Of a stretch of DNA of 64,000 nt, positions 44,572 through 61,570 are shown piece after piece. The notes under the pieces were generated by a model that searched no databases, was not told the DNA's origin, and saw only the letters and a list, made by a program, of their open reading frames with translations. The first letter of the stretch is position 1; every line of letters begins with the position of its first letter. The position numbers were made by a program, and so were the translations under genes. This stretch comes from Hyphomicrobiales bacterium (lineage in GTDB: Bacteria; Pseudomonadota; Alphaproteobacteria; Rhizobiales; Rhizobiaceae): the NCBI GenBank assembly GCA_900470155.1, contig UBZT01000015.1, positions 1 through 64,000 on the forward strand, given 5' to 3'.

Positions 44572-45080
44572 TCAATTCAGTTGAGATATCGCCGGATGTT
44601 TCAGGCACCCGGCTGCCCCTAGCCCCTTGCGCTCCACATCAGAAAAGGTTTCGCGGTCATCCCCTGCGGTTGCTGCTATCGCGAGATAGTCCGGCTTCCA
44701 GACCTCACGGACGAACGCGTGCGTCGTCGTGGACAATTCCGGGCGATCCTCAAGTTCGCCATGGAAGCGAACGACGTCATTGTTTAAGGCGTCGGCGGTT
44801 GAGGTGTCGTCCTTCCATTTTTACGGCGTCCGGAACCGCTTGAGAAATTCGTCTTCCACGTCCTTGCGCGTTGTCTCGATGTAGCGACACTCGACGGGAC
44901 GGCCGCTTTCCCTGCCGATGATCATGGCCAGTTCGTTCATCGAGATATCCTGAGAGCCGACTTCGAGAGAGACTCGGTGTCTTTCCGTCGGATTGGTGAG
45001 TTCCCCTGCGCCAGCCATGCAATGTCATCGATCGCTACCCAGGGCATCTGGTCGATATAGGCGTGGTGCAGCCCCAGCAC
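44572..45080 (-). pseudogene. Relic of an NmrA-like NAD(P)-binding protein
   Basis: A minus-strand frame around 45050 reads MPWVAIDDIAWLA, then after a frame shift near 45000 the sequence continues ELTNPTERHRVSLEVG, MNELAMIIGRESGRPVECRY and DVEDEFLKRF. This order is the C-terminal part of NmrA/SDR-a5 proteins. A TAA at 44821-44823 interrupts the frame, which then stays open to 44572. The broken frame, the internal stop and missing N-terminus mark it as a pseudogene. Confidence 0.58.
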
Positions 45081-45370
45081 TGATAGGAGCGCAGATCGCG
45101 CGTGCGCATTATGGCGAGCTTCGAAAACTTTTCGTCAAGCAGTGAGGCCGCAGCCAGCGGAAGATCTATTACACGGTGCGTGTTGCCAACCGTTTCCTCG
45201 ACTGTCGCTTCGGGGGGAGGCGTCTGCAGTCCGAGTGCGCCCAAACCTAAGAAGAAGTTCGCGCATGCGCCATGTTGTTGCTATGTTGTGTTAACCGGCG
45301 TGATTTTTCACGTTTGTGCCACAGCACCGAGGAGTGGTTCTGGATAGGTCGACAACACCTTAGATTGAAA

Positions 45371-46195
45371 ATGCATATGGTCGAAATTCGAGAAGACTTT
45401 TACAGCCTCGCCGCCTGGCAACACTATGAACGATGCAACCCATGGATTACGGCCAAGCCGGAAATCGACGCGATGGCTTTACGCGTGCTTACTAACGGCT
45501 TTGTAGAGCCGCTAACAGGAACCCGTGTAGCACCTGAGCAAGTTCAGAAGGGTAGCGGCCTTCGCGAGGGTCTTCTTTTTGAGGGCATCAGTTCCCGTGT
45601 AAGAGCCGTGTTACAGACAATCGAAGACCTAGCTCAGATAGACGACAAATTCAGTCACCGCATTTATGCGGCGGAGGCGTTGACGCCATTCGCATTGAGA
45701 ATGAGGGGTATGTATCCTCGTTTTGTTGGCTCGGAATACACCGAGGACCAACAAAAACGGCACTGGCTTCATCCTATTCTGGTGGAAGACCTGTTAGCCC
45801 TTACCTTTGATAGCAATCATTTCAATCTAGTGTCGACGAACGAAGTGCTGGAGCATGTCCCATCGATCGATAAAGCCATGACTGAACTGCATCGCATTCT
45901 GCAACCGGGAGGATGGCACATTGGCACGTGTCCGTTTTACTTCTACCAAGAGGCATCGGTCGTGAAGGCCAAGGTGAAAGATGGGAAGATTGAACATTTA
46001 ATGAAGCCCGAGTTCCACGGGAACCCAATGAGCGAAGCCGGTTCTCTTGTTTTTGAGCTTCCTGGCTGGAACCTAATGGACCGCTTGAAGTCACTAGGCT
46101 TTCAAAAATCGTTTATGCGCTTCATCGCCTCAGACAATCACGGGATTGTTGATGATTTGGCAACCGGAGTATTCGTGCTTTGCTGTCAAAAATAG
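45371..46195 (+). CDS. Class I SAM-dependent methyltransferase-like protein
   Basis: 274 residues from the ATG at 45371; the longer upstream frame is rejected for lack of domain sequence. The recognisable methyltransferase part is the middle: NLVSTNEVLEHVPSIDKAMTELHRILQPGGWHIGTCPFYFY, matching motifs IV-VI of Methyltransf_11. The glycine-rich SAM loop (motif I) is not obvious. A+T content is higher than in the operons before it, fitting the polysaccharide locus that follows. It stands alone between gene relics. Confidence 0.7.
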   Translation: MHMVEIREDFYSLAAWQHYERCNPWITAKPEIDAMALRVLTNGFVEPLTGTRVAPEQVQKGSGLREGLLFEGISSRVRAVLQTIEDLAQIDDKFSHRIYAAEALTPFALRMRGMYPRFVGSEYTEDQQKRHWLHPILVEDLLALTFDSNHFNLVSTNEVLEHVPSIDKAMTELHRILQPGGWHIGTCPFYFYQEASVVKAKVKDGKIEHLMKPEFHGNPMSEAGSLVFELPGWNLMDRLKSLGFQKSFMRFIASDNHGIVDDLATGVFVLCCQK

Positions 46196-46352
46196 CTAAG
46201 TAATTTAAGCGTACTGACCACATCCAGCGTAGTGTCAGCAACAGATGACGATTGTGAATGAGCGTGACGGCCTGGTGCACGACTTCAGTGCCTAGAAGCC
46301 AAGAAGGGGGCGACGATACTGAGATCGTGTTTCCGGAAAGGGTAGTGGCGAG

Positions 46353-46461
46353 TTGGCCCTTAATCGCTTGCCGAGGTGGAACGCGGCCGAGAGGGCAGAA
46401 GACCGAAAAGATGCCCGAGTTGCCCGCGAGTTAGAGCTTTCACTGCCGCACGAGCTCAATG
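46353..46461 (+). pseudogene. MobA/MobL-type relaxase fragment
   Basis: The plus-strand frame contains [20 protein letters not shown] followed by [11 protein letters not shown]. The WNAAE.AE.RK.A.VARE.E..LP.EL pattern is characteristic of MobA/MobL and Ti/Sym-plasmid TraA relaxases. Only about 35 residues remain; the flanking frame is unrelated and no oriT-like repeats were noticed. It is a relic of a mobile or conjugative element. Confidence 0.65.
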
Positions 46462-46809
46462 CGAGCCGAACATCTGACGCTGATGCTGTCAAGCCTATCA
46501 TGCCCGCGGCTGCCATAGCTGATCTGTCGACCATCAGAGATTAATTTGTAAAAAGCGCGCGATTGATGGTCGGTCAGTTTAAAAATTCGTTGTAGTGACA
46601 GTAGCTCAGTTTAGTATTCTGAACGCGAGAGGCCAGGCTGAATCTAGCAGGATGGCCCACTACTGACGGATGTCTTCACCGAGGCGGAAGTTCTTCAGGT
46701 GCTACGTTTAAAATGTTTGCGAGCATGCGGCGAAACAGGAACCTCATCCAGCGAACGGTTGACCCTGTGGCCCTGACGGTGAACATTTCTGGGGATTCCG
46801 TGGACTTTT
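46462..46809. other. Region without recognised gene
   Basis: Short frames only. It lies between two gene fragments and seems to be decayed DNA. Confidence 0.4.
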
Positions 46810-46887
46810 TTATTCGGCTGTTGTGACGACTGTTTACACGTTCGTCTTCAGTGTGGTGTTAAAGGCGCGTTGGAAAGATATCCCAGC
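46810..46887 (+). pseudogene. Fragment of a polysaccharide ABC exporter permease (Wzm-like)
   Basis: The frame reads VYTFVFSVVLKARW (about 46830-46871) before a stop at about 46890. The same motif, VYTFVFSEVFKARW, occurs in the intact Wzm at 58649-59467 in this window. Only about 20 residues remain, so it is a relic, probably of an earlier O-antigen export gene displaced by the present locus. Confidence 0.55.
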
Positions 46888-47042
46888 ATATCGCCCATGA
46901 GGTCGTGATCTTGGTATTGCTGTGCAACGAGGGCCGTATCCGGTTTCCATATATCTGACATTCGGCCCCCCATCCAGGCTTAGATTCTGCTCTGGCGGGG
47001 TGTCGCTCGGTAAGTAACTCAAGCTCAGAGCTGGAAGATAGA

Positions 47043-48041
47043 ATGCAACTTAAAAACAAGAAAGTCTTAGTGACGGGGGCCGACGGATTTATCGGCAGCC
47101 ACTTGGTTGAAGCTTTGCTTGATTATGGATGCGATGTACGCGCCTTTGTGTTCTACAACTCATTCAATAGCTGGGGTTGGCTCGACACAATCCCTCCCGA
47201 AAAACTTCGCTCCCTAGATGTCTTCGCAGGTGATATACGCGACCCGAATGGCGTTGCTAAGGCGATGGATGGGTGTGATGTAGTGTTTCATCTGGCGGCG
47301 TTGATCGCCATACCATTCTCCTACCACTCTCCCGACTCATACGTTGATACCAACATCAAGGGCACGCTAAATGTCTTGCAGGCGGCAAGACGCTTCGAAA
47401 CGGAGCGAGTGCTCGTCACGTCCACCTCTGAAGTATACGGCACCGCCCAATACGCTCCGATCGATGAGCTTCATCCCTTTCAGGGGCAGTCCCCGTATAG
47501 TGCCACGAAAATCGGAGCTGATAGGCTGGCGGAATCCTACTTTCGCTCATTCGACACGCCAGTCACAATCGTACGACCATTCAATACCTTTGGCCCGAGG
47601 CAGTCGGCACGGGCGGTGATCCCGACAGTGATCACTCAGCTGCTTTCGGGGGCGACTGAGTTGCATCTTGGCAGTCTCTCGCCGACGCGCGATTTTAATT
47701 TTGTTGATGATACTGTTGCTGGGTTCATAGCACTGGCTGAGTGCGATGCTGCGGTAGGTCAAGAGGTTAACATTGCGACCGGGATCGAGCATAGCGTGGG
47801 AGATGTTGCCAATTTCTTGATCTCCCAAATAAATCCGGCGGCTTGTATTGTCGCTGACGATCAGCGTCTAAGGCCAGATGCTTCTGAAGTGTTTCGGCTA
47901 ATTGGCGACAATAAAAAAATAACTTCGCTTACCGCCTGGCGCCCTGAACACAATATCGAAAGTGGCCTCAAAAAAACAGTTACATGGTTTGAGCAGCCAC
48001 AGAACCTTTCGCGCTACAAAGCTTGGCTCTATAACCTCTGA
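47043..48041 (+). CDS. NAD-dependent sugar-nucleotide 4,6-dehydratase, LegB-like
   Basis: 332 residues. Rossmann motif GADGFIGSHLVEALL (14-28), DVFAGDIRDPNGV, VFHLAALIAIPFSYHSPDSYVD and the catalytic YSATK (Tyr/Lys) near residue 157, with TSTSEVYG before it. The AIPFSYHSP and FNTFGPRQSARAVIPTVI stretches are typical of the LegB group, which makes 4-keto-6-deoxy sugar nucleotides. In legionaminic acid loci an aminotransferase (LegC) follows; here it does not, so the product probably has another fate. Confidence 0.87.
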   Translation: MQLKNKKVLVTGADGFIGSHLVEALLDYGCDVRAFVFYNSFNSWGWLDTIPPEKLRSLDVFAGDIRDPNGVAKAMDGCDVVFHLAALIAIPFSYHSPDSYVDTNIKGTLNVLQAARRFETERVLVTSTSEVYGTAQYAPIDELHPFQGQSPYSATKIGADRLAESYFRSFDTPVTIVRPFNTFGPRQSARAVIPTVITQLLSGATELHLGSLSPTRDFNFVDDTVAGFIALAECDAAVGQEVNIATGIEHSVGDVANFLISQINPAACIVADDQRLRPDASEVFRLIGDNKKITSLTAWRPEHNIESGLKKTVTWFEQPQNLSRYKAWLYNL

Positions 48042-48054
48042 TCGGAATAATAAT

Positions 48055-48765
48055 ATGAGAGCAGTTATACTCGCTGGAGGCAAGGGTACACGTCTCCGAC
48101 CCTATAGCACACTTATACCCAAGCCTTTGGTGCCTCTTGGAGGTAAGTATTCGATACTAGAAATAATAATCATGCAGCTGCGTGCTGCGGGCTTCACTCG
48201 AATCACCCTGGCCGTCAACCATCTTTCGCACCTGATAATGGCTTACTTCGGTGATGGCGCGCGCCTTGGTGTTGAGCTCGATTACTCGCTTGAAGAGGGT
48301 GAATTGAGTACCATTGGCCCTCTAACTCTTATCGACGATCTGCCGGAAAATTTTCTGGTTATGAATGGAGATATCCTTTGCAATCTAGATTATCGCGCTT
48401 TTTTTGAAACGCACGTCGCTGGCGGGAGCCGGATCTCCGTCTCCGCATTTAAGCGCCAAATGAAAATCGACTTTGGAGTGCTTAGGTACGATTCAACGGG
48501 TCAACTTGAGGCCTTTGAAGAGAAGCCGGAATACGATTTCGATGTCAGTATGGGAATTTATTGCCTCAATCGAGGAGTGGTGGAAACACTAGCTCGTGGA
48601 GGTAAATATGGCTTTGACAACCTCATGATCGACAGTCTGGCATCGGGTAGCCGTGTTGATATCCGGCCGTTCGAGGGATACTGGTTGGACATTGGTCGCC
48701 CCGATGACTATGAGTACGCGGACACGAACTTTAGTGAAATTGCCGCTCGCTTAGGAATAGAATGA
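48055..48765 (+). CDS. Sugar-phosphate nucleotidyltransferase
   Basis: 236 residues from the ATG at 48055; the longer upstream frame overlaps the dehydratase gene. The pyrophosphorylase signature AGGKGTRLRPYS with Lys in IPKPLVPLGGK is at residues 6-29, VMNGDILC (metal-binding Asp) near 101-108, and a FEEKPEYDFDVSMGIY segment later. It makes an NDP-sugar from a sugar 1-phosphate; the nucleotide is uncertain, with mannose-1-phosphate guanylyltransferase-like enzymes the nearest in motif. It overlaps the next gene by 4 bases. Confidence 0.88.
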   Translation: MRAVILAGGKGTRLRPYSTLIPKPLVPLGGKYSILEIIIMQLRAAGFTRITLAVNHLSHLIMAYFGDGARLGVELDYSLEEGELSTIGPLTLIDDLPENFLVMNGDILCNLDYRAFFETHVAGGSRISVSAFKRQMKIDFGVLRYDSTGQLEAFEEKPEYDFDVSMGIYCLNRGVVETLARGGKYGFDNLMIDSLASGSRVDIRPFEGYWLDIGRPDDYEYADTNFSEIAARLGIE

Positions 48766-49625
48766 CAACTAAGGTTCTTATCACTGGGTCCTCTGGCGCC
48801 TTGGGTCGCGTTTTAACAGATCGACTTGAGGCTGATCCAGCACGATACCAGGTGATCGCTCCTCGACGAGGTGATACCGGTGATCGGCTTTTAGACATGC
48901 GTGATGCGCATCAGATCGCCGATAGCATAGCTCACCATCGTCCTGAAATGATCTTACATCTGGCGGCTACTTTTTCGAGCGATTTCGAGGAAGCATATTC
49001 CATAAACGTATCCGCAGCCCGCCATATACTCTCGAAGGTTGCGGAATCATCCTTGTCTACTCGCGTTTTGCTAGTTGGGTCTGCCGCTGAATATGGGGTG
49101 GTCGAGGCTCAAGAGAATCCTGTTGCAGAAGACCGGGTCCTTCGCCCGGTGTCTGTCTACGGTATAACAAAGGCGTGGCAGACGGAGCTTGCATATCTAT
49201 ACGCCGGTCGGGGGGTCGATGTTGTAGTGGCGAGAATCTTCAATCTGGTTGGCCCTCGTCTCTCGGAAAGATTGTTCGTAGGTCGACTACGCAAGCAGAT
49301 TGAAGAGGTGCGCAGAGGGGAGCGTGGTCGCATTGAGGTTGGCTCGCTTTCGGCAAGCCGCGATTACATAACGATCGAGGATGCTGCGACACAATTGCTT
49401 GCTATTGCCGAGCTGGGAGACGCTGGTAGGGTTTACAATGTCGGCAGCGGTGTCCCCATTACGATGAAGGACCTCCTTTGCCAGGAGCTGGCGTCCAACG
49501 GTCTGGCGGACGTTACCGTTGTGGAAGCAACCGGAGCCACAGATAACCGAGGATACGATGTCCCTCTTATATATGCAGATGTATCACATGTATCTGCATT
49601 GTTAGCGAGGCGAGGAGAACGATGA
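48762..49625 (+). CDS. NAD-dependent epimerase/reductase (SDR), GDP-4-keto-6-deoxymannose reductase-like
   Basis: 287 residues. N-terminal TGSSGALGR (8-16), LHLAATFSSD, VLLVGSAAEYG and a catalytic YGITK (Tyr/Lys) near residue 132. Layout and the SAAEYG motif resemble Rmd-type reductases of 4-keto-6-deoxy sugar nucleotides. With the two previous genes it forms a short activation-dehydration-reduction set for a 6-deoxy sugar. It overlaps its neighbours by 4 bases on each side. Confidence 0.83.
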   Translation: MTTKVLITGSSGALGRVLTDRLEADPARYQVIAPRRGDTGDRLLDMRDAHQIADSIAHHRPEMILHLAATFSSDFEEAYSINVSAARHILSKVAESSLSTRVLLVGSAAEYGVVEAQENPVAEDRVLRPVSVYGITKAWQTELAYLYAGRGVDVVVARIFNLVGPRLSERLFVGRLRKQIEEVRRGERGRIEVGSLSASRDYITIEDAATQLLAIAELGDAGRVYNVGSGVPITMKDLLCQELASNGLADVTVVEATGATDNRGYDVPLIYADVSHVSALLARRGER

Positions 49626-50581
49626 CCGATATTCAGCTCACAGTTATTGCGCCGGTTTATAACGAAGCAGATATCATTGGAGTGTTTCACGAGAGCATTA
49701 GCCAGGTACTGGAAAGTCTTCCAGGCGTGGATGCAAAGATACTTTACATAGTGGATCGATGCACTGATAATACGGTGGAAATTCTACGGGAGGTGATTGC
49801 GCGTGATCCTCGTACGAGAGCCATAGTACTTTCATCGCGCTTTGGGCACCAGATGTCGCTGATGGCTGGTATAGACAATGCAGTAGGTTCCGATGCCATT
49901 ATCATGATGGACAGCGACCTGCAGCATCCGCCGGAGCTGATTCCCGTCCTAATTGAGAACTTTCGAAATGGTTTCGAAATTGTCTATACGGTGCGCAGGG
50001 ATACGGAGGCGATTAGTCCCTTCCGAAAGCTTGCCGGAAACATGTTCTACGGTGTGCTTTCGAAGCTGTCCCATGCGCCAATGAATGCCAATGCGGCGGA
50101 TTTTCGTCTGATATCGGGGCGTGTCGGCAGAGTTCTATCGACTGACTTTCGCGAGAGAAATCTATTCCTGCGAGGCTTGTTCAACTGGATTGGTTTTCGG
50201 CAGATCGGCGTTGAGTATGTGGCTCGAAAAAGAGCTGGCGGATACTCAAAATATTCGCTCTCGAAAATGATGCAGCTAGCGACTGCGGCAATATTGTCCT
50301 TTAGTACAAAGCCATTGCAGTTTGGAATATTTGTCGGATTGGGTTTCTCTTTACTGTCGTTTATGTTGATTTTTTGGGCTGTCATCAAGTTTTTCATTGT
50401 CCAAACTATCCCGGATGGTTGGACAACGCTGGTGGTGTTGTTGCTCTTGTTTAGTGGTATCCAGTTAACGGTTATGGGCATCATAGGAGCCTACATCGGC
50501 GGCATCTACGAGGAGGTCAAGAGTCGGCCTCGCTACATCATAGAAGAAGAGATCATAAACAATGAACAAACCCAAAGTTGA
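49622..50581 (+). CDS. GtrB/ArnC-like polyprenyl-phosphate glycosyltransferase (GT2)
   Basis: 319 residues. GT-A domain (about 1-230) with TVIAPVYNEAD, MMDSDLQHPPELIP (the D-x-D) and KRAGGYSKYSLSKM near 200-213. Two membrane helices follow (about 235-263 and 268-300). This is the DPM1/GtrB/ArnC build that puts a sugar on polyprenyl phosphate at the cytoplasmic face. It is immediately followed by a methyltransferase and GtrA genes. Confidence 0.9.
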   Translation: MTDIQLTVIAPVYNEADIIGVFHESISQVLESLPGVDAKILYIVDRCTDNTVEILREVIARDPRTRAIVLSSRFGHQMSLMAGIDNAVGSDAIIMMDSDLQHPPELIPVLIENFRNGFEIVYTVRRDTEAISPFRKLAGNMFYGVLSKLSHAPMNANAADFRLISGRVGRVLSTDFRERNLFLRGLFNWIGFRQIGVEYVARKRAGGYSKYSLSKMMQLATAAILSFSTKPLQFGIFVGLGFSLLSFMLIFWAVIKFFIVQTIPDGWTTLVVLLLLFSGIQLTVMGIIGAYIGGIYEEVKSRPRYIIEEEIINNEQTQS

Positions 50582-51248
50582 CTTCGACCAATACACACAA
50601 AATTACAACGAGCTACTGCGCGAGGGCACGGGATTTTTTTCGAAGAACGAGGCTTACTTTGCTGAATACAAGGTGAAAATTGCACGGCGAGAATTCTCTT
50701 CCGAGCCAAAGAACGTGCTAGAATATGGCTGTGGTATCGGACGGAACATTCCCTATCTTCGCGCTGCATTCCCGGGCGCGACCATTAGTGGCTCCGATAT
50801 TTCTGTCGCGAGTTTAGAGATAGCTCGCCAGGAGAATCCCGGGGTAGAATTCTTTATGGAGAATTCCGATATATCTGGATCTACGCTTTACGATATGATT
50901 TTTGTAGCTGGGGTTTTCCACCATATACCGGTGGAACAGCGTCTCCCGGCCATGATGTCGTTGCACAAGAGGCTCGCCCCCGGTGGCGCAGTGATTGTGT
51001 TCGAGCATAACCCATTCAATCCCGTTACGCGTAGGATAGTCAACGACTGTCCGTTCGATCTAGATGCGGTACTTTTGCGCCCGTCCGAACTAAAGAAGCT
51101 CTATACAGCGGCGGGTTTTCATGTCGAGGGACATGCCTATTGCCTCTTTGTCCCGCCATCCCTTCCTTTCTTGCTACCGCTCGAGGAGAGACTAGGTAAA
51201 CTGCCTTTGGGCGGTCAGTATTGGGTCAAGGCCGTACGCGCGCTATGA
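50562..51248 (+). CDS. Class I SAM-dependent methyltransferase
   Basis: 228 residues, starting 20 bases inside the previous gene. Motif I VLEYGCGIGRNIPYL (about 48-62), an acidic residue after ISGSDIS (about 73-79), and MIFVAGVFHHIP (about 110-121). The C-terminal part has few hydrophobic stretches and a LLRPSELKKLY helix. In this operon it probably methylates the sugar or glycan being made. Confidence 0.88.
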   Translation: MNKPKVDFDQYTQNYNELLREGTGFFSKNEAYFAEYKVKIARREFSSEPKNVLEYGCGIGRNIPYLRAAFPGATISGSDISVASLEIARQENPGVEFFMENSDISGSTLYDMIFVAGVFHHIPVEQRLPAMMSLHKRLAPGGAVIVFEHNPFNPVTRRIVNDCPFDLDAVLLRPSELKKLYTAAGFHVEGHAYCLFVPPSLPFLLPLEERLGKLPLGGQYWVKAVRAL

Positions 51249-51610
51249 CTCAGTTTGTCAGATTTGTCTTGGCTGGCATCGCCAATACGATTGTGGGATA
51301 TGCGATAATTTTCGCATGCATGTACTTACTGGGGCTGTCGCCGGAACTCAGCAATGTGGCTGGCTACGCCCTTGGGTTGTGTATATCCTACTCCTTGAAC
51401 CGAAACTTCACGTTCAAGAGTTCGGGCCGCATTAGCGCAGAATTTTCTCGTTTCTTGTTCGTGTTCCTAGTCTCCTACACTGCAAATTTGGTGTTGCTCG
51501 TCGTTCTGGTGCGAATGCTATCGTTACACGCGGCACCAAGTCAAATCATCTCCGGAGTTGTGTACATGATGACGGCTTATATTCTGAACAAGCGCTATGT
51601 ATTTCGATAG
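51245..51610 (+). CDS. GtrA family membrane protein
   Basis: 121 residues from the ATG at 51245, overlapping the methyltransferase stop by 4 bases. Four predicted helices and the family motifs FVRFVLAGIANTIVGYAI at the start and YALGLCISYSLNRNFTFKS in the middle, ending KRYVFR. GtrA proteins are thought to flip polyprenyl-linked sugars across the inner membrane. Confidence 0.92.
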   Translation: MTQFVRFVLAGIANTIVGYAIIFACMYLLGLSPELSNVAGYALGLCISYSLNRNFTFKSSGRISAEFSRFLFVFLVSYTANLVLLVVLVRMLSLHAAPSQIISGVVYMMTAYILNKRYVFR

Positions 51611-53906
51611 ACACCATTCCGATCATCCCGCGGCACTTACTGACGCAAAGAGCGACATATGGCGTGAAATTCTTCCGCTGTTGGCGCTCGTCGGAATGTG
51701 GGGCTTTTTTCTGTGGGATGCGTTTGACGGTTCTCGCTCCTTTGCGCTTTTTATGGACAACGAATTTTTTATCGGAAGTGTGCTTTCAGCGATGTCATCG
51801 TCGTTTAGCGGTGGCGAATGGCCACTGCGAATAACAACTCTTGTGGGGGGGGTTCCCCTTTACAACTTCGCTCAGCTATCACCTTTCTATCCATTTTATC
51901 TTGCCATATTTCCGTTATTCAAAACTCCACTTGATGCGGCCGCCACTATGCACAGCATCGTTCTGGGGCATTTGCTGATTTTTACAATTAACACCTACAT
52001 TTTAATGCGCGTGCTGCATCTCTCACGTGTGGCGGCAGTTACCGGGGCTGTGTTTCTCGTTTTTGGGCCGAACAGCCTAGCCTATGCAGTATGGATGAAC
52101 ATTGTCGCCCCTTATTCTTGGCTTCCTTTATACCTTGCTGGTGTTATCGGGATATTAGAGGGCCGAAAATCCCTGAGATTTCCCCTAACTGCGTTGGTTG
52201 CGATTGTATTGCTAGCGTTGGCATCGCCATCGCAGCCGCTTATCCATGCTGTGATGCTGACCGGGATCCTTGTTCTAGTTCGAGCGGCGCAACCTCTGCT
52301 CTGCAATGCCCCCGGCTTGTCGCTCCGAAGCGTTCTCATACTAATCGGTGTGGGGGTAATCTCGATTCTGCTAGCTTCGCCGGTAATTGTGCCAACCGCG
52401 ATTGGTATGAGTGAGATGATTCGTTGGATTGGCCCCTATCCACCGGTAGTCGGTTACGATCGAATTCCATTTGAAGCGTTCCTGTTCGATCAGCTATCAA
52501 TTCCTGAACTTGGGGGAGTTTTAGTCAAGACTGCGGCGAAGTCTGTAGGAAGCCAATTCGTAGGACCGGTGGCTGTTACCTTGTCCCTCTATGCCCTCCT
52601 CATGAATTGGCGATCATGGATTGTGCTGGCGATGGGGTTCGTCGCTGTGTATGCACTGGCGTCTGCGGCTGGGGGTAACCTTGGACTTGCCTATCTAAAC
52701 TACTTGCTACCGTTGGTGAACAAGATACGTGAGCCAAGCCGATTTCTGTTTTTGTTTCAATTAGCTATTTCAGTTCTCTGCGCCTTTGGCATTGATGAAA
52801 TGCGCAAGCTTGTCTCCGGCGAGGATGCTGCCAAAGGATGGCACAGACCCTTCATTATTGCCTGCGTCGTAGCAGGCGCGTCGTTGCTTTTCGTCGTCTA
52901 CCTGGGAGAAGGCGATGCCAATCTGATCCGATCGCTCGTCGCTACGAGTCTCCTGCTGGCTGCAATCGCGGTGACCCTTGTTGCGGCCAGACGTCACTGG
53001 CGTTTCCGAAGCGAGGGGATAGGTTTATGCTGGAGTTTGGCCGCAATCTCTGTGCTTGCCACCAGCGTGAGTTGGACGCCGCCTTCTATATCGGCAAGTA
53101 CATACCTGACAAACGATGGTGTAGGGCTTGACGTGGCGCTTGATCGTGTGAACCAGCTCGATCCACGGCACAAATACCGCGTTGTTTTTGAGGGGAGCAT
53201 CGACAAGCAGATGGCCTCGATGCTGGCATCGTATGTCGGAATTCGTACACTAAACTTCTACATCAATCCCGCACCGTTTCGGCAGTTCGAGGAACTGTAT
53301 AATCATGGGCCAAGGAAGGACAATTACCTTCAAATCCTCGGGGCACGCTATCTAATTTGCAAAGACTGCAGCGATAGCAAATATGCAGGCTTCAAATTTC
53401 GCGAATCTATCAACGACTACGATTTGCACGAAGCAGTCGAAGCTCTGCCATTTGTCTATTCATCCCACCACGTGGACGGACAATTTGGGGGTATTGGTGA
53501 CTTCATTGAGAAGGCTGCGTCATTTTCACTGGCGGATGGATTGCTTTTCGTAGAGCAGGGGACGGAGATACCACTTGGGAGCGAGGCTTCAAGATCTGTT
53601 GGATGCGTTATCCGCGAAGAGGCGGAAAAGAAAAACTTTCTGCGCTATCTAGTGTCCTGCGCATCTCCAGCCATACTTGTTGTGAACGATTTCTTTAGCG
53701 AATCGTGGAGGCCACGAGTGGATGGCGTCGCGGTCGAGGCGCTGCGGGTTAATGGCAATCAGATCGGAGTTCCCGTTGGCCTTGGAGGGCATGTGGTTGA
53801 ACTGCACTTCAAGCCACGAATTTTCCTGTGGTCGTTAATGCTACCTGTCATTGGAGGGGGGTTGCTCCTATGTTGGCTGGCATGGATAAGAAGCAAGGTG
53901 AGATAA
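51597..53906 (+). CDS. Large polytopic membrane protein, GtrC/YfhO-like glycosyltransferase candidate
   Basis: 769 residues, start overlapping gtrA by 14 bases. About ten to twelve predicted helices in residues 25-480, with an acidic loop MDNEFFIG after the first helix and a REPSRFLFLFQL segment that is typical of YfhO-type (GT-C-like) proteins. A soluble portion of about 230 residues follows, then a final helix near 745-763. In Gtr systems the third component is a serotype-specific membrane transferase that moves the sugar from polyprenyl carrier to O-antigen; this gene holds that position. Confidence 0.72.
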   Translation: MYFDRHHSDHPAALTDAKSDIWREILPLLALVGMWGFFLWDAFDGSRSFALFMDNEFFIGSVLSAMSSSFSGGEWPLRITTLVGGVPLYNFAQLSPFYPFYLAIFPLFKTPLDAAATMHSIVLGHLLIFTINTYILMRVLHLSRVAAVTGAVFLVFGPNSLAYAVWMNIVAPYSWLPLYLAGVIGILEGRKSLRFPLTALVAIVLLALASPSQPLIHAVMLTGILVLVRAAQPLLCNAPGLSLRSVLILIGVGVISILLASPVIVPTAIGMSEMIRWIGPYPPVVGYDRIPFEAFLFDQLSIPELGGVLVKTAAKSVGSQFVGPVAVTLSLYALLMNWRSWIVLAMGFVAVYALASAAGGNLGLAYLNYLLPLVNKIREPSRFLFLFQLAISVLCAFGIDEMRKLVSGEDAAKGWHRPFIIACVVAGASLLFVVYLGEGDANLIRSLVATSLLLAAIAVTLVAARRHWRFRSEGIGLCWSLAAISVLATSVSWTPPSISASTYLTNDGVGLDVALDRVNQLDPRHKYRVVFEGSIDKQMASMLASYVGIRTLNFYINPAPFRQFEELYNHGPRKDNYLQILGARYLICKDCSDSKYAGFKFRESINDYDLHEAVEALPFVYSSHHVDGQFGGIGDFIEKAASFSLADGLLFVEQGTEIPLGSEASRSVGCVIREEAEKKNFLRYLVSCASPAILVVNDFFSESWRPRVDGVAVEALRVNGNQIGVPVGLGGHVVELHFKPRIFLWSLMLPVIGGGLLLCWLAWIRSKVR

Positions 53907-54223
53907 GATTACGACCGGGAAATATATAGTCGTTCGTTGGGCGGGACTATTGGCGGTAGGCTATTCGTATCGATTCTATGTTAACCGGCCATTTGGTTGC
54001 GGGATCTGGTTAAGCCTGTTTTGTCCGTGCCGAGGTCATGCTCCGTTTCGGAGGGGGCATGGCCTTGTTGTGAGGGTAACAAAAGTTCTGCCCCGCTAAC
54101 CTCCCCTTCCACCGTATTCGGAAATTTTGTTTGCAGGACAAGACTTTGACAATTATCTGTGCGCCTCTGCGCAGAGGGGATATACCGAGGTCTCCAAGTT
54201 TGCTCCCACTTCACGGATGATAG
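53907..54223. other. Gap between the two polysaccharide gene blocks
   Basis: No supported gene. A short hairpin (CTCCG-TTT-CGGAG at 54041-54053) lies in the middle. It may hold a terminator for the first block and a promoter for the second; the sequence gives no firm promoter. Confidence 0.4.
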
Positions 54224-55249
54224 ATGCCGGACGACAATTTACTTTCTTCATCTGAACCCTACCGGGAGGTCGCTGCAGTAACCGATCATATTCGTACGGC
54301 TGAGGCGATTGATTCCCGTGTCCACGACAATCTGCATGTTGCCATCCTGATGGGGACCTACAATGGAGCGCGTTTTCTGGAGGAGCAGTTGTCCTCTCTC
54401 GCGCGCCAGCGGCACCGTACTTGGACCCTTTATGCGTCGGATGACGGTTCTCAAGACGGTACTCTCAAGGTGCTCGAAGCGTTTCGTGACCAATGGGGCG
54501 ACGGCCGGGTGCATATATTACAAGGTCCCCGGAGAGGGTTTGTCGCCAACTTCCTATCGCTAGCCTGTAGGCCTGAAGTTTCTGCCGATTTCTTCGCTTG
54601 GTGCGATCAAGACGATATTTGGCGGGATGATAAGCTTGATGTGGCCTTGACCTGGCTTCGGACGATTCCTCACGAAATACCGGCTCTGTATTGTGGGCGT
54701 ACAGAAACTATCTCGCAAAGTGGTGTAAGTGAGGGGTTTTCTCCACTATTCAGGCGGACACCCGCTTTTGCGAATGCTCTAGTTCAGAGTATTGCTGGCG
54801 GAAATACGATGGTTTTCAATCAATCTGCGCGTGTTCTGTTGCAGGAAGCCGGCGATCATATGAAACTGCCGTCGCATGACTGGTGGGCGTACCAGCTGAT
54901 ATCCGGAGCAGGAGGCAAAGTATATTACGACGCTAAGCCAAAAGTTCTATATCGTCAGCATGAGGCCAATATCGTCGGTAGCAATTCTGGCGTTTCTGCT
55001 CGGTTGATGCGGATACGGCTGTTGCTAGAGGGCCGTTTTCGCCAATGGAATGAACAGACGCTACCCGCGCTGGATTCGATGAAGCACCGCTTAACTCGTG
55101 AAAGTGAAATCACCCTTTCGGCTTTCAAAGCGGCTCGTAGGCGAAAATTGCCTTGGCGTGTTTTTGGTTGTATTCGTGCGGGGATTTATCGACAAACCGT
55201 GCTCGGAACACTTGGCTTGTTCGCGGCAATCATTATGAAAAAGATCTGA
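54224..55249 (+). CDS. Glycosyltransferase family 2, rhamnosyltransferase-like
   Basis: 341 residues. GT-A core at about 36-250: [32 protein letters not shown], and [11 protein letters not shown] with the D-x-D-like DQDD. No membrane helices until a short hydrophobic tail. The family includes rhamnosyltransferases such as RgpB/WbbL relatives; rfbBDAC follow directly, which supports a rhamnose donor. First gene of the second block. Confidence 0.85.
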
Positions 55250-55253
55250 ATCA

Positions 55254-56324
55254 ATGACCATTCTTGTCACGGGCGGCGCAGGGTTTATCGGCTCAAATTT
55301 TGTTTTGGACTGGTTGGATCATTCGGATGAGGCAGTGATCAATCTCGACAAGCTGACTTATGCGGGCAACCTCGCCAATCTCGTTAGTATTGAGAGAAGT
55401 CAGCAGTACGTATTTGTTCATGGTGATATCGGTGATTCGGCATTGATCGGTCGATTGTTGGCCGAGCACCAGCCTCGGGCAATTCTGAATTTTGCCGCTG
55501 AGTCTCACGTCGATCGGTCTATTCATGGCCCGGGAGATTTTATCGAGACCAATATCGTTGGCACCTTTCACCTGCTGGAAGCAGTTCGGGCCTACTGGAG
55601 CCGACTTTCTCCAGACGGGCAGCGGAGCCTTCGTTTCCTACATGTATCCACTGATGAGGTTTACGGGTCGCTCAGCAAGGACGAGCCGGCGTTCACGGAG
55701 AACCACAGGTACGAGCCCAACAGCCCGTACTCCGCGAGCAAGGCTGCAAGCGATCATTTGGTACGTGCCTATCATCATACCTACGGTCTGCCGGTGCTGA
55801 CAACCAACTGTTCAAACAATTATGGCCCGTACCACTTCCCAGAAAAACTCATCCCGCTGATGATTGTCAACGCCTTGGCCGGCAAGCCTCTGCCAGTCTA
55901 CGGCGATGGCCAGCAGATCCGTGACTGGTTGTACGTTAAAGACCATTGCAGCGCGATACGTCGCGTGCTTGAGGCTGGCGCGCTCGGTGAAACCTACAAT
56001 ATTGGAGGTTGGAACGAGAAGCCCAATCTGGATATCGTGCACATGGTCTGCGCGATCCTCGATGAACTAAAGCCGCGTGCCGACGGCCGTGCCTACCGGG
56101 CACAGATCACCTATGTTGCCGACCGTCCCGGGCATGATCGACGCTATGCCATCGACGCCCGTAAAATAGAGCGGGAACTCGGCTGGAAGCCGGCGGAAAC
56201 ATTTGAGACGGGCATCCGAAAGACCGTCCAGTGGTATCTGGACAATCCGGATTGGACCGCCGATATCCAGTCTGGCGCGTACCGGGAATGGGTGGAAAAG
56301 AACTATACCGGACGCACTGCATGA
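55254..56324 (+). CDS. rfbB: dTDP-glucose 4,6-dehydratase
   Basis: 356 residues. [12 protein letters not shown] near the N-terminus, [23 protein letters not shown], and catalytic YSASK with the following [18 protein letters not shown] stretch, all diagnostic of RfbB/RmlB. It makes dTDP-4-keto-6-deoxyglucose, the second step of dTDP-L-rhamnose synthesis. The stop overlaps the rfbD start. Confidence 0.97.
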
Positions 56325-57226
56325 AGATTCTCTTGCTGGGTAAGAATGGGCAGGTGGGCTGGGAGTTGCAGAGAAGCCTGGCGCCGCTGGGAGAGGTGCT
56401 CGCATTGGATGCGAGAAGCATTGACTACAGCGGCGACCTGACCGACTTGAACGGATTGGTATCGACGGTGCAGCGTTACAAGCCGAATGTGATTGTCAAT
56501 GCCGCCGCATATACGGCAGTGGATAAGGCTGAGAGCGAGCCGTTACTCGCTATGCGGGTGAATGCCGAGGCCGTCGCGGTCCTTGCAAAGCAGGCATGTC
56601 TCCTGGGTAGCCTGCTGGTGCACTACTCGACTGACTATGTGTTTCCGGGAACCGGCGAGAAACCTTGGACGGAAAGCGATACGACTGCACCACTCAACCT
56701 TTACGGTCTGAGCAAGCATCAAGGCGAGACGGCGATTCAGGAATCCGGCTGTCAGCATCTCATTTTCCGTACTAGCTGGGTCTACTCGGCTCGCGGTAGT
56801 AATTTCGCAAGGACCATGTTGCGTCTTGCGATTGAGCGCGACAGCTTAAAGGTGATAGACGACCAGTTCGGCGCCCCTACGTCAGCCGAGCTTCTGGCGG
56901 ACGTCAGTGCCCATGCCATTTGGGCTTTCCAGAGGCAGCCGGGGCTCGGTGGACTTTATCACCTGGCGGCAGGGGGGGAGGCTTCCTGGAATAGCTACGC
57001 GCGATTTGTGCTTAATCAGGCCGAGGCGAAGGGAATGGCGCTCAAAGTATCTGCTAAGGATATTGAGGCCGTTCCGACAAGCGCCTACCTTACGGCCGCA
57101 AAGCGCCCTGCCAACTCGCGACTGAATACTGAGAAGCTGCGCATGGCATTCTCGTTGTACCTCCCTGACTGGCAGTCAGGTGTCACGCGAATGCTCACCG
57201 AAGTTCTGGAGAATTACAAATGCTAG
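56321..57226 (+). CDS. rfbD: dTDP-4-dehydrorhamnose reductase
   Basis: 301 residues from the ATG at 56321 (ATGA overlap with rfbB). [10 protein letters not shown] at 7-16, [21 protein letters not shown] and the YGLSK catalytic pair. It catalyses the last step to dTDP-L-rhamnose. Ends 7 bases inside rfbA. Confidence 0.96.
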
Positions 57227-58104
57227 AGCGTAAAGGTATTATCCTTGCCGGTGGTTCCGGCACGCGCTTGCACCCAGCAACTCTTGCGATTTCCAAGCAA
57301 TTATTGCCGGTGTATGACAAGCCGATGATTTACTACCCGCTCACGACTCTGATGCTAGCGGGCATACGTGATGTATTGATCATCTCCACACCACAGGACA
57401 CGCCTCGCTTCGAGCAGTTACTGGGGGACGGAAGTCGATGGGGCCTCAACATCAGCTATGCGGTACAGGCGTCACCGGACGGACTTGCGCAAGCCTTTCT
57501 AATCGGCGAAAGGTTTATCGGCGATGACCTGTCTGCTCTGGTTCTGGGTGACAACATCTATCATGGCCACGACTTTCAGGACCTATTGGTCAATGCAATG
57601 GCGCGGGTCGAAGGCGGTAGCGTGTTTGCCTACCATGTGCAGGACCCTGAGCGCTATGGTGTGGTCGAGTTTGACGCCGCAGGAAAGGCTATCAGCCTTG
57701 AAGAAAAGCCATCCAATCCCAAGTCCAATTATGCTGTGACTGGCTTGTACTTTTACGACCGGCATGTCGTCGAGATAGCAAAGAGCATCAAGCCTTCTCC
57801 ACGTGGCGAGTTGGAGATTACGGATCTCAATCGCGTTTACCTCGAGCAGGGCAAGCTCTCAGTCGAGATCATGGGCCGCGGCTATGCTTGGCTCGACACA
57901 GGGACCCATGAATCGCTGCTGGAAGCCAGTCAGTTCATCGCGACCCTCGAAAATCGTCAGGGTTTGAAGGTCGCATGTCCTGAAGAAATTGCGTTCCGTC
58001 GACGCTGGATCGATGCAGAACAGTTGGAAGCGCTTGCTGCGCCACTTTCGAAGAACAGCTATGGCAAGTACCTTAAGCGCATCCTGGTGGAGACAATTTA
58101 CTGA
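57220..58104 (+). CDS. rfbA: Glucose-1-phosphate thymidylyltransferase
   Basis: 294 residues. Nucleotide-binding [11 protein letters not shown] (11-21), [17 protein letters not shown] (25-41), [24 protein letters not shown] and [10 protein letters not shown], all standard for RfbA/RmlA. First step of dTDP-L-rhamnose synthesis; the product-binding allosteric site belongs to the same family. Abuts rfbC. Confidence 0.97.
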
Positions 58105-58649
58105 TGATTGCGACACGCATGACAATACCCGATGTGGTGCTGCTCCAGCCAAAGGTGTTTGGAGACGAACGCGGGTTTTTCTATGAAAGCTTCAACCAGC
58201 AGCGTTTCGAGGATGCGGTAGCTCGCTCTGTCACATTTGTTCAGGACAATCACTCAAAGTCGACCAGAGGCGTGCTGCGTGGTCTGCATTATCAAGTCCA
58301 GCAACCTCAGGGCAAGCTGGTGCGGGTTGTCGTTGGCGAGGTCTTCGATGTTGCGGTCGATTTGCGTGTGTCATCGCAGACTTATGGTAAGTGGGTCGGC
58401 GCTATATTGAGCGCCGAGAACAAGAGCCAGCTTTGGGTACCCGAGGGCTTCGCGCACGGATTTTTCGTGCTCAGCGAAACTGCGGAATTCCTTTACAAGA
58501 CCACGGACTACTATGCCGCTGAACACGAGCGATGCGTTGTCTGGAACGATTCCACTCTCAACATCCAATGGCCGAACGAGACAACGCCGTCACTTTCGGC
58601 GAAGGACGCACAAGGTACGCGTTTCCTGGACGCCGAGGTTTATGCCTGA
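58104..58649 (+). CDS. rfbC: dTDP-4-dehydrorhamnose 3,5-epimerase
   Basis: 181 residues. Cupin fold with FGDERGFFYESFN, NHSKSTRGVLRGLHYQ (catalytic His) and WVPEGFAHGFFVLSE, diagnostic of RfbC/RmlC. Completes the rfbBDAC set. Its ATG shares a base with the rfbA stop, and its stop overlaps the wzm start. Confidence 0.97.
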   Translation: MIATRMTIPDVVLLQPKVFGDERGFFYESFNQQRFEDAVARSVTFVQDNHSKSTRGVLRGLHYQVQQPQGKLVRVVVGEVFDVAVDLRVSSQTYGKWVGAILSAENKSQLWVPEGFAHGFFVLSETAEFLYKTTDYYAAEHERCVVWNDSTLNIQWPNETTPSLSAKDAQGTRFLDAEVYA

Positions 58650-59467
58650 TGCGTGACTTCCCCGCCAATCCTGCCGAATTGGTCCGCAGCCTGTGGCGCA
58701 ATCGGGAACTGATCAAGGCATCAGCAAGTCGCGACGTGTTGGGTCGCTATCGCGGCTCGATCATGGGGATACTGTGGTCATTTTTCAATCCGATGCTGAT
58801 GCTGAGCGTATATACATTTGTATTCAGCGAGGTGTTCAAGGCGCGCTGGAATGGGGGCAGCGGTTCCAAGGTCGAATTTGCGTTGGTGCTGTTTGCGGGC
58901 CTGATCATGTTTAACCTGTTTGCAGAATGCATCAATCGGGCTCCGCAAATCATCCTGTCGAATGTCAATTATGTCAAGAAAGTCGTGTTTCCGCTTGAAA
59001 TCCTTCCGTGGGTGGCCTTGGCCTCGGCCATGTTTCATGGATTAATCAGTTTCGGTGTCTGGATGGCAGCCTATGTCATTTTCTTTGGTCTGCCGCATTG
59101 GACCGTTTTGTATCTGCCGCTGATCGTCCTGCCATTTTTCATGCTGATTATGGGATTGAGCTGGGCATTGGCGTCGACCGGAGTCTTTCTGCGGGATGTA
59201 TCACAATTTATCGGCGTCATCACGACAGTCCTGATGTTCCTCAGTCCCATTTTTTATCCGGTCACGGCTTTGCCCGAAGCGTATCGCGCGATGCTTTATC
59301 TCAATCCGCTTGTGCCGGTGATCGAGCAGACGCGCGAAGTGTTGTTCTGGGGTAGGGTACCGGATTTCAGGCTCCTCGGCATCTGTTGGGTGCTCTCGGC
59401 CGTCGTCGCATGGTTGGGCTTTGCTTGGTTCCAGAAGACGCGGAAAGGTTTTGCTGATGTCCTCTGA
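58649..59467 (+). CDS. wzm: O-antigen/polysaccharide ABC exporter, permease subunit (Wzm)
   Basis: 272 residues from the ATG at 58649. ABC-2 type permease with an N-terminal amphipathic SASRDVLGRYRGSIMGILWSF segment, six predicted helices and the SNVNYVKKVVFPLEILP loop. VYTFVFSEVFKARW follows the first helix. With the next gene it exports an undecaprenyl-linked polysaccharide across the inner membrane. Lies directly after the rhamnose genes, so rhamnose is likely in that glycan. Confidence 0.93.
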   Translation: MRDFPANPAELVRSLWRNRELIKASASRDVLGRYRGSIMGILWSFFNPMLMLSVYTFVFSEVFKARWNGGSGSKVEFALVLFAGLIMFNLFAECINRAPQIILSNVNYVKKVVFPLEILPWVALASAMFHGLISFGVWMAAYVIFFGLPHWTVLYLPLIVLPFFMLIMGLSWALASTGVFLRDVSQFIGVITTVLMFLSPIFYPVTALPEAYRAMLYLNPLVPVIEQTREVLFWGRVPDFRLLGICWVLSAVVAWLGFAWFQKTRKGFADVL

Positions 59468-60830
59468 AATCGCCATCAAGGTCGAGAACCTCAGTAAGTG
59501 TTACCAGATTTACGATCAGCCGATTGATCGGTTGAAACAATTCTTCATGCCTCGGATACGGCGACTCATGGGGCTGGCGCCGACACAATATTATCGTGAA
59601 TTTTGGGCGCTACGGGATGTGTCCTTCGAGATCCGGAAAGGACAGACCGTCGGGATCATCGGCCGCAACGGTAGTGGCAAGTCGACATTCCTTCAGATGA
59701 TTTGCGGCACGCTCAACCCGACGGATGGTAGTATCCAAACCCATGGTCGCATCGCGGCGCTGTTGGAACTGGGATCCGGATTTAACCCAGAATTCACCGG
59801 GCGCGAAAACGTCTATATGAATGGCGCCCTCCTTGGATTGAGCAGATCTGATGTCGATCAGCGCTTCGACGATATTGCAGCGTTTGCGGATATCGGTGAC
59901 TTTATTGAGCAGCCGGTAAAGTCCTACTCAAGCGGCATGATGGTTCGGTTGGCCTTCGCCGTGATTGCTCATGTTGATGCAGACATTCTTGTTGTTGACG
60001 AAGCGCTAGCTGTTGGCGATGCATTCTTTACGCAAAAATGCATGCGCTTTCTGCGCGGTTTCATGAAGACCGGCACGATTTTGTTTGTGAGTCATGACAC
60101 CGGCGCTGTGGTCAATTTATGCAGCGAAGCGATCTTGCTAAACCATGGGGAAGTCAAAGCTACAGGATCGCCAAAAACCGTTATCGAGCGCTATCTCGCC
60201 ACGTTGTACGAAGCCGAACAAGTAGTAGATGGCGTTGCGCGAGAGATAGATCCCGAGCCAGCCGACCTGTCGGCAGTGCCGGACTACCGTGATATGCGCG
60301 AAGATATGATTCGCGCATCGAACTTGCGAAATGATATTGAAGTCTTCAAGTTCGATCCCGATCAGTCGGGCTTTGGTACGGGGAGTGCAAAGATTGTATC
60401 CGTACGCCTGCTTGATCAGGACGGTTCGCAGCTTTCATGGATCGTTGGGGGCGAAGACGTCGTCCTTGAAATTCGCTGTACAGCTGTTATGGACATCCTT
60501 CGACCGATCGTTGGCTTCCAATTTAAGGACCGCCTTGGCCAGATTATTTTCGCGGACAATACGTTCCTTGTTTACGAACACAATCCTCATTCGGTTTCGC
60601 AGGGTGAGGACCTACTGGCAACGTTCGAATTCCGTTTGCCTATGCTGCCAAATGGAGACTACAGTTTCACGGTTGCCCTTGCTGAAGGCTCACAGGAAAG
60701 TCACCTTCAGCATCACTGGATCCATGACGCTTTGGTAATCCGGGTGCACGCAAGTTCGATAGACCAAGGGCTGGTTGGCGTTCCGATGAAAAAGATCCAG
60801 TTTAACACAATAAAGAGCCATGATGAGTAA
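59457..60830 (+). CDS. wzt: O-antigen ABC exporter, ATP-binding subunit with C-terminal carbohydrate-binding domain (Wzt)
   Basis: 457 residues from the ATG at 59457. ABC domain (about 1-250) with Walker A GRNGSGKST (69-77), signature SSGM in YSSGMMVRLAFAVIAH and Walker B ILVVDEALAVGD. Residues about 320-445 form a beta-sandwich C-terminal domain (ENPHS-like VYEHNPHSVS, FRLPMLPNGDYSFTVALAEG) like that of E. coli O8/O9a Wzt, which recognises the modified non-reducing end of the glycan. This suggests export of a capped O-polysaccharide. Confidence 0.93.
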   Translation: MSSEIAIKVENLSKCYQIYDQPIDRLKQFFMPRIRRLMGLAPTQYYREFWALRDVSFEIRKGQTVGIIGRNGSGKSTFLQMICGTLNPTDGSIQTHGRIAALLELGSGFNPEFTGRENVYMNGALLGLSRSDVDQRFDDIAAFADIGDFIEQPVKSYSSGMMVRLAFAVIAHVDADILVVDEALAVGDAFFTQKCMRFLRGFMKTGTILFVSHDTGAVVNLCSEAILLNHGEVKATGSPKTVIERYLATLYEAEQVVDGVAREIDPEPADLSAVPDYRDMREDMIRASNLRNDIEVFKFDPDQSGFGTGSAKIVSVRLLDQDGSQLSWIVGGEDVVLEIRCTAVMDILRPIVGFQFKDRLGQIIFADNTFLVYEHNPHSVSQGEDLLATFEFRLPMLPNGDYSFTVALAEGSQESHLQHHWIHDALVIRVHASSIDQGLVGVPMKKIQFNTIKSHDE

Positions 60831-61554: not shown

Positions 61555-61570
61555 GAGCGGATACTGCCCA

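Follow-up and report, generated by a model that had tools for sequence, protein, structure and literature searches.

Can a Gtr-type surface decoration system carry the synthesis of its own sugar donor? The question is raised by a same-strand run of seven genes at positions 47043-53906 of the window, which here refers to the whole 64,000-nucleotide stretch of Hyphomicrobiales DNA that was analyzed. All seven open reading frames are intact. Five of the six junctions between them overlap (by 4, 4, 20, 4 and 14 bases) and the remaining one, LegB/NTP, is a 13-base gap, which bears out the original prediction of seven overlapping or closely spaced genes. GC content drops from 0.59-0.60 to about 0.52 at 45 kb, and the module lies within the low-GC region. 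The module and its downstream neighbors, of which the rml and Wzm/Wzt open reading frames were named from sequence, are as follows:

47043..48041, + strand: LegB-family NAD-dependent 4,6-dehydratase (TIGR04180; acid/base and triad pattern TSE(128)...YSATK(152))
48055..48765, + strand: sugar-1-phosphate nucleotidyltransferase (NTP; PF00483 above the curated cut-off)
48762..49625, + strand: extended SDR, likely a 4-keto reductase (PF01370 above cut-off; YGITK at 133)
49622..50581, + strand: GtrB-type GT2 with a DSD motif (PF00535 above cut-off; phrog_841)
50562..51248, + strand: class I SAM methyltransferase (MT) of a GtrB/GtrA-linked family (PF13489/PF08242; E[HN]NPxNP signature)
51245..51610, + strand: GtrA small membrane protein, putative flippase of lipid-linked sugar (PF04138; phrog_2224)
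51597..53906, + strand: multi-spanning membrane protein of 769 aa (sub-threshold YfhO match, hhalign, hydropathy)
54224..55249, + strand: context GT2 adjoining the rml-like genes (PF00535)
55254..58649, + strand: context rmlB, rmlD, rmlA and rmlC (dTDP-L-rhamnose supply)
58532..60830, + strand: context Wzm-like permease and Wzt-like ATPase (ABC-dependent O-antigen export)

We consider it reasonably probable that together the seven genes encode a three-component (GtrB-GtrA-GT-C) system for extracytoplasmic glycosylation that supplies its own donor. The proposal starts from protein families, gene order, overlaps, a two-unit make-up and an MT linkage that are established by sequence. For the substrates, the methylation step and the acceptor, all of which we infer, the scheme is as follows. 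NTP would convert a sugar-1-phosphate, probably GlcNAc-1-phosphate or GlcN-1-phosphate, to a GDP-sugar, LegB would turn this into the 4-keto-6-deoxy form, and the RMD-like SDR would reduce C4, leaving a 6-deoxy-HexNAc in NDP-linked form, either QuiNAc or the 4-epimer of QuiNAc. This 6-deoxy-HexNAc would be loaded onto undecaprenyl phosphate by the GtrB-type GT2, the MT would methylate the sugar, whether ahead of lipid linkage, on the lipid-linked form or as a component of that stage, GtrA would bring the lipid-linked sugar to the periplasm, and the YfhO-like GT-C would pass the sugar to an acceptor, the likeliest candidate being the O-polysaccharide that the adjacent genes produce. Transcription of the module as a single unit, which had also been predicted, gained no support, in that promoter-like and terminator-like sites around the module were no commoner than in shuffles. 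Searches of Rfam gave no match at the gathering threshold, and no tRNA genes were found.

The Gtr-like core was recovered as predicted. The GT2 matches phrog_841, annotated as GtrB-like O-antigen conversion, at 4.8e-84, and in the PDB it matches sll0501 at 9.4e-55 as well as ArnC-type transferases; its C-terminal membrane helices were read from sequence. It is the sole match in its own genome at E <= 1e-10, and it scores 244.7 bits against a PgfS-like model, under that model's cut-off of 500. Its product would be an undecaprenyl-phosphate-sugar. GtrA passes the PF04138 cut-off of 26.1 with 88.1 bits and matches phrog_2224 at 3.5e-7.

The assignment of the 769-aa protein is more remote. Thirteen hydrophobic stretches, some overlapping, precede residue 495, followed by a long soluble region and a final hydrophobic stretch at 740-766. 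The protein scores 19.8 bits (2.9e-4) against YfhO (PF09586), which does not pass the cut-off of 28.5, and the alignment rests on the soluble region toward the C terminus; the membrane-spanning part, where catalysis may take place, matched weakly (4.9 bits). In a nine-sequence hhalign search against a profile of 25 open reading frames from YfhO loci it reached a probability of 96.3, and six other membrane proteins gave E >= 0.69. It had no PDB match, and its structure model was unusable (pLDDT 36.7). A wider GT-C profile search matched one of 249 genomes, namely its own. These comparisons support a remote YfhO relative, not a family member, a relation that would make the protein a probable periplasmic GT-C transferase.

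YfhO, GtcA and CsbB are described, in the available portions of two papers, as the GT-C, flippase and GT2 of LTA or WTA glycosylation (PMC7389260, PMC8035078). The window shares with this Gram-positive system a PgfS-like GT2, a GtrA-family flippase and a large YfhO-related membrane protein, but differs in its Gram-negative O-antigen setting, in the extra LegB-NTP-SDR genes and MT, and in the remoteness of the YfhO relation. We predict a CsbB-GtcA-YfhO-like three-component system that brings its own donor and includes a fourth, recurrent protein.

What donor the first three genes supply was approached through LegB, which passes the curated TIGR04180 cut-off of 475 with 492.6 bits. Table 1 of PMC8987622 gives [ST]SE...YxxxK for GDP-mannose dehydratase and [ST]DE for the retaining UDP-GlcNAc dehydratase. 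The TSE pattern is common to the LegB family (all 63 loci readable by pattern, of 80) and therefore does not set the window's LegB apart. The substrate of C. jejuni LegB is GDP-GlcNAc according to the part of PMC7439481 at hand. The best NCBIfam model for NTP is the mannose-1-phosphate guanylyltransferase NF052502, at 128.1 bits far under its cut-off of 440, and both guanylyltransferases and uridylyltransferases are among its PDB matches. The SDR has the reductase triad without the dehydratase acid/base pair, and its top PDB match is 2pk3, a GDP-6-deoxy-D-lyxo-4-hexulose reductase (5.1e-32).

Membership in TIGR04180 could instead place LegB in a legionaminic-acid (nonulosonic acid) pathway, and the first readable gene after LegB relatives is indeed of the LegC family (legionaminic-acid aminotransferase) in 41 of 72 readable loci. 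In the window, as in the Elusimicrobia loci L018 and L019, LegB is however followed by NTP and then SDR, not LegC; the module has no aminotransferase, and a reductase stands in its place. A NeuB (PF03102) search gave no match in the window's own genome, a draft that is 99.4% complete, with a control positive in 9 of 14 genomes. We regard this pathway as disfavored and very improbable. Because the module lacks LegC and the genome a NeuB hit, LegB probably serves the synthesis of a 6-deoxy-HexNAc reduced at C4, perhaps GDP-linked, for which the LegB-SDR unit offers a candidate route. A literature search for this route found only a review of dehydratases.

The module is composite, consisting of a LegB-NTP-SDR unit and a GT2-MT-GtrA unit that are also found apart. 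The order LegB-NTP-SDR is repeated at L018 and L019 (identity 73/62/42-43%), with no GtrA or GtrB nearby. Of the 13 matching plasmid records, eight were opened and all eight carry GT2-MT-GtrA; on rhizobial plasmids, whose annotation is incomplete, these operons have no annotated sugar-synthesis genes nearby. These separate occurrences are what would be expected if LegB-NTP-SDR made an ordinary backbone sugar for cytoplasmic transferases and the Gtr part carried another sugar, their adjacency being patchwork. In the window, however, the two units are joined by a 4-base SDR/GT2 overlap, and the core is paired with another sugar-nucleotide gene set at L117 and L125, which would be unexpected under random patchwork. 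We judge this reading to be unlikely. A co-located nucleotide-sugar supply beside O-antigen-type genes is supported, as predicted, with the LegB, NTP and SDR families upstream of rml-like and wzm/wzt-like neighbors. The supply is nevertheless not unique, as CDP-sugar genes accompany the same core at two loci, one in another genome from the window's family and one on a Legionella adelaidensis plasmid. The expected recurrence of the seven-gene set failed to appear, with no complete set at any locus examined. Phage or plasmid carriage of the module was considered and is without support: no MT relative was found in a phage collection of 50,697 records (E <= 1e-10), and 72,556 plasmid records yielded no GT-C relative (E <= 1e-5).

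The role of the MT was addressed through its neighbors. It scores above the curated cut-off for PF13489 and others and gives a confident structure model (pLDDT 88), although both its Foldseek matches and its sequence profile are those of a generic class I fold; the Foldseek matches near the top include phosphoethanolamine MTs, FPP methyltransferases and AtmM, at a query TM of about 0.5-0.7. GtrB and/or GtrA lie within 1.5 kb at 13 of 17 MT-family loci versus 1 of 19 other MT-like open reading frames, with distance and E-value thresholds that were fixed after the first loci had been inspected. The 17 loci comprise 16 genomes and G294 (L017), the latter included via its GT-C relative and not its MT. 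Thus the MT tracks GtrB/GtrA and not the window's sugar, and a tie to this particular sugar is disfavored by that linkage. The predicted methylated 6-deoxy sugar is accordingly only one reading. A tentative alternative is that a distinct Gtr branch has the MT as its fourth component, methylating the Und-P-linked sugar (or the carrier) and so gating flipping or transfer whatever the sugar, with exchangeable donor cassettes, of GDP type in the window, of CDP type elsewhere and missing on rhizobial plasmids, joining a GtrB-MT-GtrA core. A family MT adjoins GtrA at only 1 of 27 alphaproteobacterial GtrA places outside the window's genome (L162) and therefore marks a minority of Gtr systems; L152 and L171 have weaker MT-like open reading frames outside the family (5e-11, 1e-13). 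The four MT-family loci without a GtrB/GtrA neighbor within 1.5 kb are L113, L115, L116 and L150. At L113 the MT starts 162 bases from the contig end, and at L116 only a weak, divergent GT2 (5e-15) lies by the MT.

In the Arn pathway of lipid A, NDP-sugar synthesis, the ArnC GT2, a flippase and a GT-C are encoded together. The likeness compared here is that of the GT2 to ArnC; the window differs in target, sugar chemistry, flippase type and MT. Phage and chromosomal gtrA-gtrB-gtrX O-antigen seroconversion cassettes have the GtrB and GtrA profiles in common with the window and likewise comprise few genes, the last of them for a large membrane protein; the window adds nucleotide-sugar synthesis of its own as well as an MT. 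Klebsiella gml is a case of such a cassette, and it is described in PMC11127046. From the legionaminic-acid pathway, which shares the LegB dehydratase, the window differs in that its module has an SDR reductase where LegC would be expected and that its genome gave no NeuB match.

The gene neighborhood would suggest LPS as the attachment site: 317 bases downstream of the module a GT2 begins, followed by rml-like and then wzm/wzt-like genes, and in G187 a relative combines MT-GtrA with a GT2 and a YfhO-like protein, likewise beside rml-like genes. Both observations argue against the same machinery serving another acceptor (capsule, exopolysaccharide, lipid A/core or protein) in an O-antigen island that merely collects glycan genes. 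Such an acceptor is a lesser but real possibility, because the rhizobial plasmid operons lack annotated O-antigen genes (within incompletely annotated 14-15 kb regions) and in Gram-positive bacteria YfhO relatives modify LTA or WTA, as described in the available parts of PMC7389260 and PMC8035078. With an O-polysaccharide acceptor, the available text of Kelly et al. 2024 (PMC11127046) offers a precedent in three-component decoration of ABC-exported O-polysaccharide. Its pentofuranose systems likewise add sugar outside the cytoplasm to the finished O-polysaccharide, but begin from another transferase and involve pentofuranose chemistry, whereas the window would use an NDP-6-deoxy sugar and GtrB; epimerase homologues are mentioned in some candidate systems. 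The word methyltransferase occurs there once, for a chain terminator, and is absent from the main text of PMC8035078. In the accessible portion of PMC13390465, a GtrA cluster includes a SAM-methyltransferase-domain protein to which no pathway role is assigned. No publication proposing an MT step in lipid-linked sugar traffic was found by titles and abstract openings.

Should the preferred reading hold, genes for Gtr-type decoration and for the supply of its donor can move together, and a recipient without the precursor pathway could acquire a new surface sugar through a single transfer. Each proposed step of the module is of a known kind, with the MT recurrent beside the same loading and flipping genes, and this recurrence directs attention to a step in the traffic of lipid-linked sugars. 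The window's own genome has a second GtrA elsewhere that adjoins a weak GT2 match (1.3e-4), so the module is not the genome's only candidate Gtr pair.

The seven closely packed genes claimed in the original prediction were borne out, with all seven open reading frames (ORFs) intact on the plus strand and overlaps at five of the six junctions:

47043-48041, plus strand, LegB-like dehydratase (LegB), intact ORF
48055-48765, plus strand, nucleotidyltransferase (NTP), intact ORF
48762-49625, plus strand, putative RMD-like reductase (SDR), intact ORF
49622-50581, plus strand, GtrB-type glycosyltransferase (GT2), intact ORF
50562-51248, plus strand, methyltransferase (MT), intact ORF
51245-51610, plus strand, GtrA, intact ORF
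51597-53906, plus strand, 769-residue membrane protein, intact ORF

The GtrB-like GT2 and GtrA that had also been claimed were confirmed by PHROG matches (GtrB-like, 4.8e-84; GtrA-like, 3.5e-7) and by Pfam matches for both, and the LegB-like dehydratase was upheld at 492.6 bits, above the curated NCBIfam cut-off of 475. Beyond these observed protein families and their gene linkage, we infer the substrates, methylation and acceptor of the module as follows. NTP, LegB and SDR would make a donor sugar that GtrB would place onto undecaprenyl phosphate; the sugar would at some stage be methylated by the MT, the lipid-linked sugar flipped by GtrA, and the sugar transferred onto O-polysaccharide by a YfhO-like GT-C.

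The legionaminic-acid reading of LegB is disfavoured because NeuB had no match in the genome carrying the module (GCA_900470155.1), with the control search positive in 9 of 14 genomes. LegB was scanned against genome_contigs (84,980 species), and the best 80 loci of a longer list were used, from which near kin of this genome are perhaps missing. Among the LegB matches listed, the two best-ranked are Elusimicrobia (L018 and L019), both of which keep the order LegB-NTP-SDR, with identities of 73, 62 and 42% and of 73, 62 and 43%, respectively. LegB of rhizobial plasmids is only 53-61% identical (20 rows listed of 27), and the LegB-NTP-SDR unit was therefore probably acquired from a distant source, judging by these identities. 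Two further loci hold LegB with an NTP truncated by the contig end (L024), and LegB, NTP (48%) and a remoter SDR (27%) followed by GT2-like and PAP2-like proteins (L087). The first gene 3' of LegB was readable in 72 of the best 80 loci, and belongs to the LegC family in 41 and matches NTP_transferase in 11 of these. LegB of the module has the pattern TSE...YSATK, and TSE is common to all 63 pattern-readable loci, the other 17 of the best 80 being unreadable by pattern. According to Table 1 of PMC8987622, [ST]SE marks GDP-mannose dehydratases and [ST]DE retaining UDP-GlcNAc dehydratases, and the substrate of C. jejuni LegB is given as GDP-GlcNAc in PMC7439481. The best solved relative of the SDR is 2pk3, a GDP-6-deoxy-4-keto-hexulose reductase (5.1e-32). 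Taken together, the TSE pattern, the C. jejuni substrate and the SDR relative favor a GDP-linked 6-deoxy-HexNAc as the putative product.

A single-protein search with the MT, METHYLTRANSFERASE, matched 13 of 299 genomes, its own included; in most of the remaining 12, GT2 and/or GtrA is matched within the 1.5 kb flanking the MT. MT profile A1 found 17 of 398 genomes, again including its own, with one match per genome at E <= 1e-35. The motif E148-H-N-P-x-N-P154 is invariant across a 14-row alignment; across 98 loci scanned, E[HN]NPxNP is present in all 17 MT-family ORFs from elsewhere (16 genomes of the A1 search plus G294) and absent from every non-family ORF. GtrB (E < 1e-40) and/or GtrA (E < 1e-8) lies within 1.5 kb at 13 of the 17 family loci. 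The 98 loci also contain 19 MT-like ORFs outside the family, of which a single one, in the G294 module, has such a neighbour. In the reverse count, a family MT occurs at 1 of 27 other alphaproteobacterial GtrA places, and a weaker MT-like ORF at two more. For two family members (L115:9153-9893 and L150:8964-9677), about 9 kb to each side gave no match to GtrB or GtrA; these MTs are either orphans or work with a Gtr pair located far away.

The MT also matched 13 plasmid records at E <= 1e-20. GT2-MT-GtrA is present in all eight that were opened; among the remaining five, GT2 and/or GtrA is listed beneath the match in three, and nothing is listed there in two. One membrane-protein family of ~490-510 aa continues the operon in five of the eight, and a relative lies near the MT in L114, L119, L147 and L148. 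Seven of the operons are on rhizobial plasmids (L123, L124, L126-L130), with the ~500-aa protein next in five, and no annotated sugar-synthesis genes were found near them, plasmid annotation being incomplete. In Rhizobium sp. RCAM05350 (L129:6322-9637), where GT2 is unannotated and was detected by profile, the operon copy looks broken or misread because the MT and the membrane protein are each split over two reading frames.

The module GT2 is the sole match of its kind in its genome at E <= 1e-10; among solved structures it is related to sll0501 and ArnC-type transferases. A second GtrA on a different contig adjoins a weak GT2 match. The 769-residue protein is rare: of 297 genomes in the order, two match at E <= 1e-10, its own and G294 (24% identity), and a two-row profile found its own genome alone among 249 of the phylum (E <= 1e-15). 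A YfhO-type profile was built from 25 ORFs of PF09586-matching loci, two of them below the PF09586 cut-off. In a nine-sequence search this profile matched the 769-residue protein (1.6e-9), a 765-aa protein of G187 (2.2e-9) and the G294 relative (9.1e-5), with six other membrane proteins at E >= 0.69. By hhalign, the 769-residue protein matched the profile over its C-terminal region with very high probability; its AlphaFold model was of very low confidence and unusable.

The architecture of a GtrB-MT-GtrA core with an exchangeable donor supply is recurrent, as four loci demonstrate. In G265, of the same family as the genome studied, one minus-strand gene run (L117:8820-17452) holds GtrA, MT, GtrB-like GT2, glucose-1-phosphate cytidylyltransferase (389.5 bits; cut-off 300.25), and CDP-glucose 4,6-dehydratase (424.4 bits; cut-off 278.45). 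The run further includes one protein bearing C-methyltransferase domains, another with a Gfo/Idh domain, and a 711-aa membrane protein that has no family match. A Legionella adelaidensis plasmid (L125:4496-10987) is annotated with class I MT, Gfo/Idh, GT2, MT, GtrA, rfbF and rfbG; the gene list is common to both, the extra MT having C-methyltransferase domains in L117 and being class I by annotation only in L125. G187, also of the same family, has MT-GtrA beside rmlC-, rmlA-, rmlD- and rmlB-like genes, with a GT2 and the YfhO-like 765-aa protein (L121), and G294 has GT2, MT, GtrA, a second MT-like ORF and a YfhO-like protein.

The closest known systems are CsbB-GtcA-YfhO (PMC7389260, PMC8035078), gtrABX, and the three-component decoration of ABC-exported O-polysaccharide (PMC11127046). 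A methyltransferase was not found as a recurring Gtr partner in the available parts of the literature searched, including PMC11127046, PMC13390465 and PMC7389260. PMC13390465 describes a GtrA cluster in which one protein has a SAM-methyltransferase domain and is predicted to span the membrane with two helices.

At 45 kb in the window, GC content declines from 0.59-0.60 to about 0.52, and it then stays at 0.48-0.58 up to the end, which suggests that 45000-64000 is an acquired O-antigen island. The following lie 3' of the module:

3' of module, GT2, identified by family scan
3' of module, rmlB, rmlD, rmlA and rmlC, named from sequence alone
3' of module, Wzm-like permease and Wzt-like ATPase, named from sequence alone
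L016:5623-7651, just past the window, minus strand, gmd-like and rmd-like genes, named from sequence and similarity

The gmd-like and rmd-like pair suggests that GDP-D-rhamnose is also produced at this locus. A 1123-aa ORF located towards the end of the O-antigen cluster (window 61499-64000; L016:1500-4871) combines an N-terminal methyltransferase domain with a GT2 domain. Elsewhere, similarity points to Rhizobiaceae as the probable family of the host: a Rhizobium sp. WL3 plasmid shares 89% identity with part of window 17000-41500.
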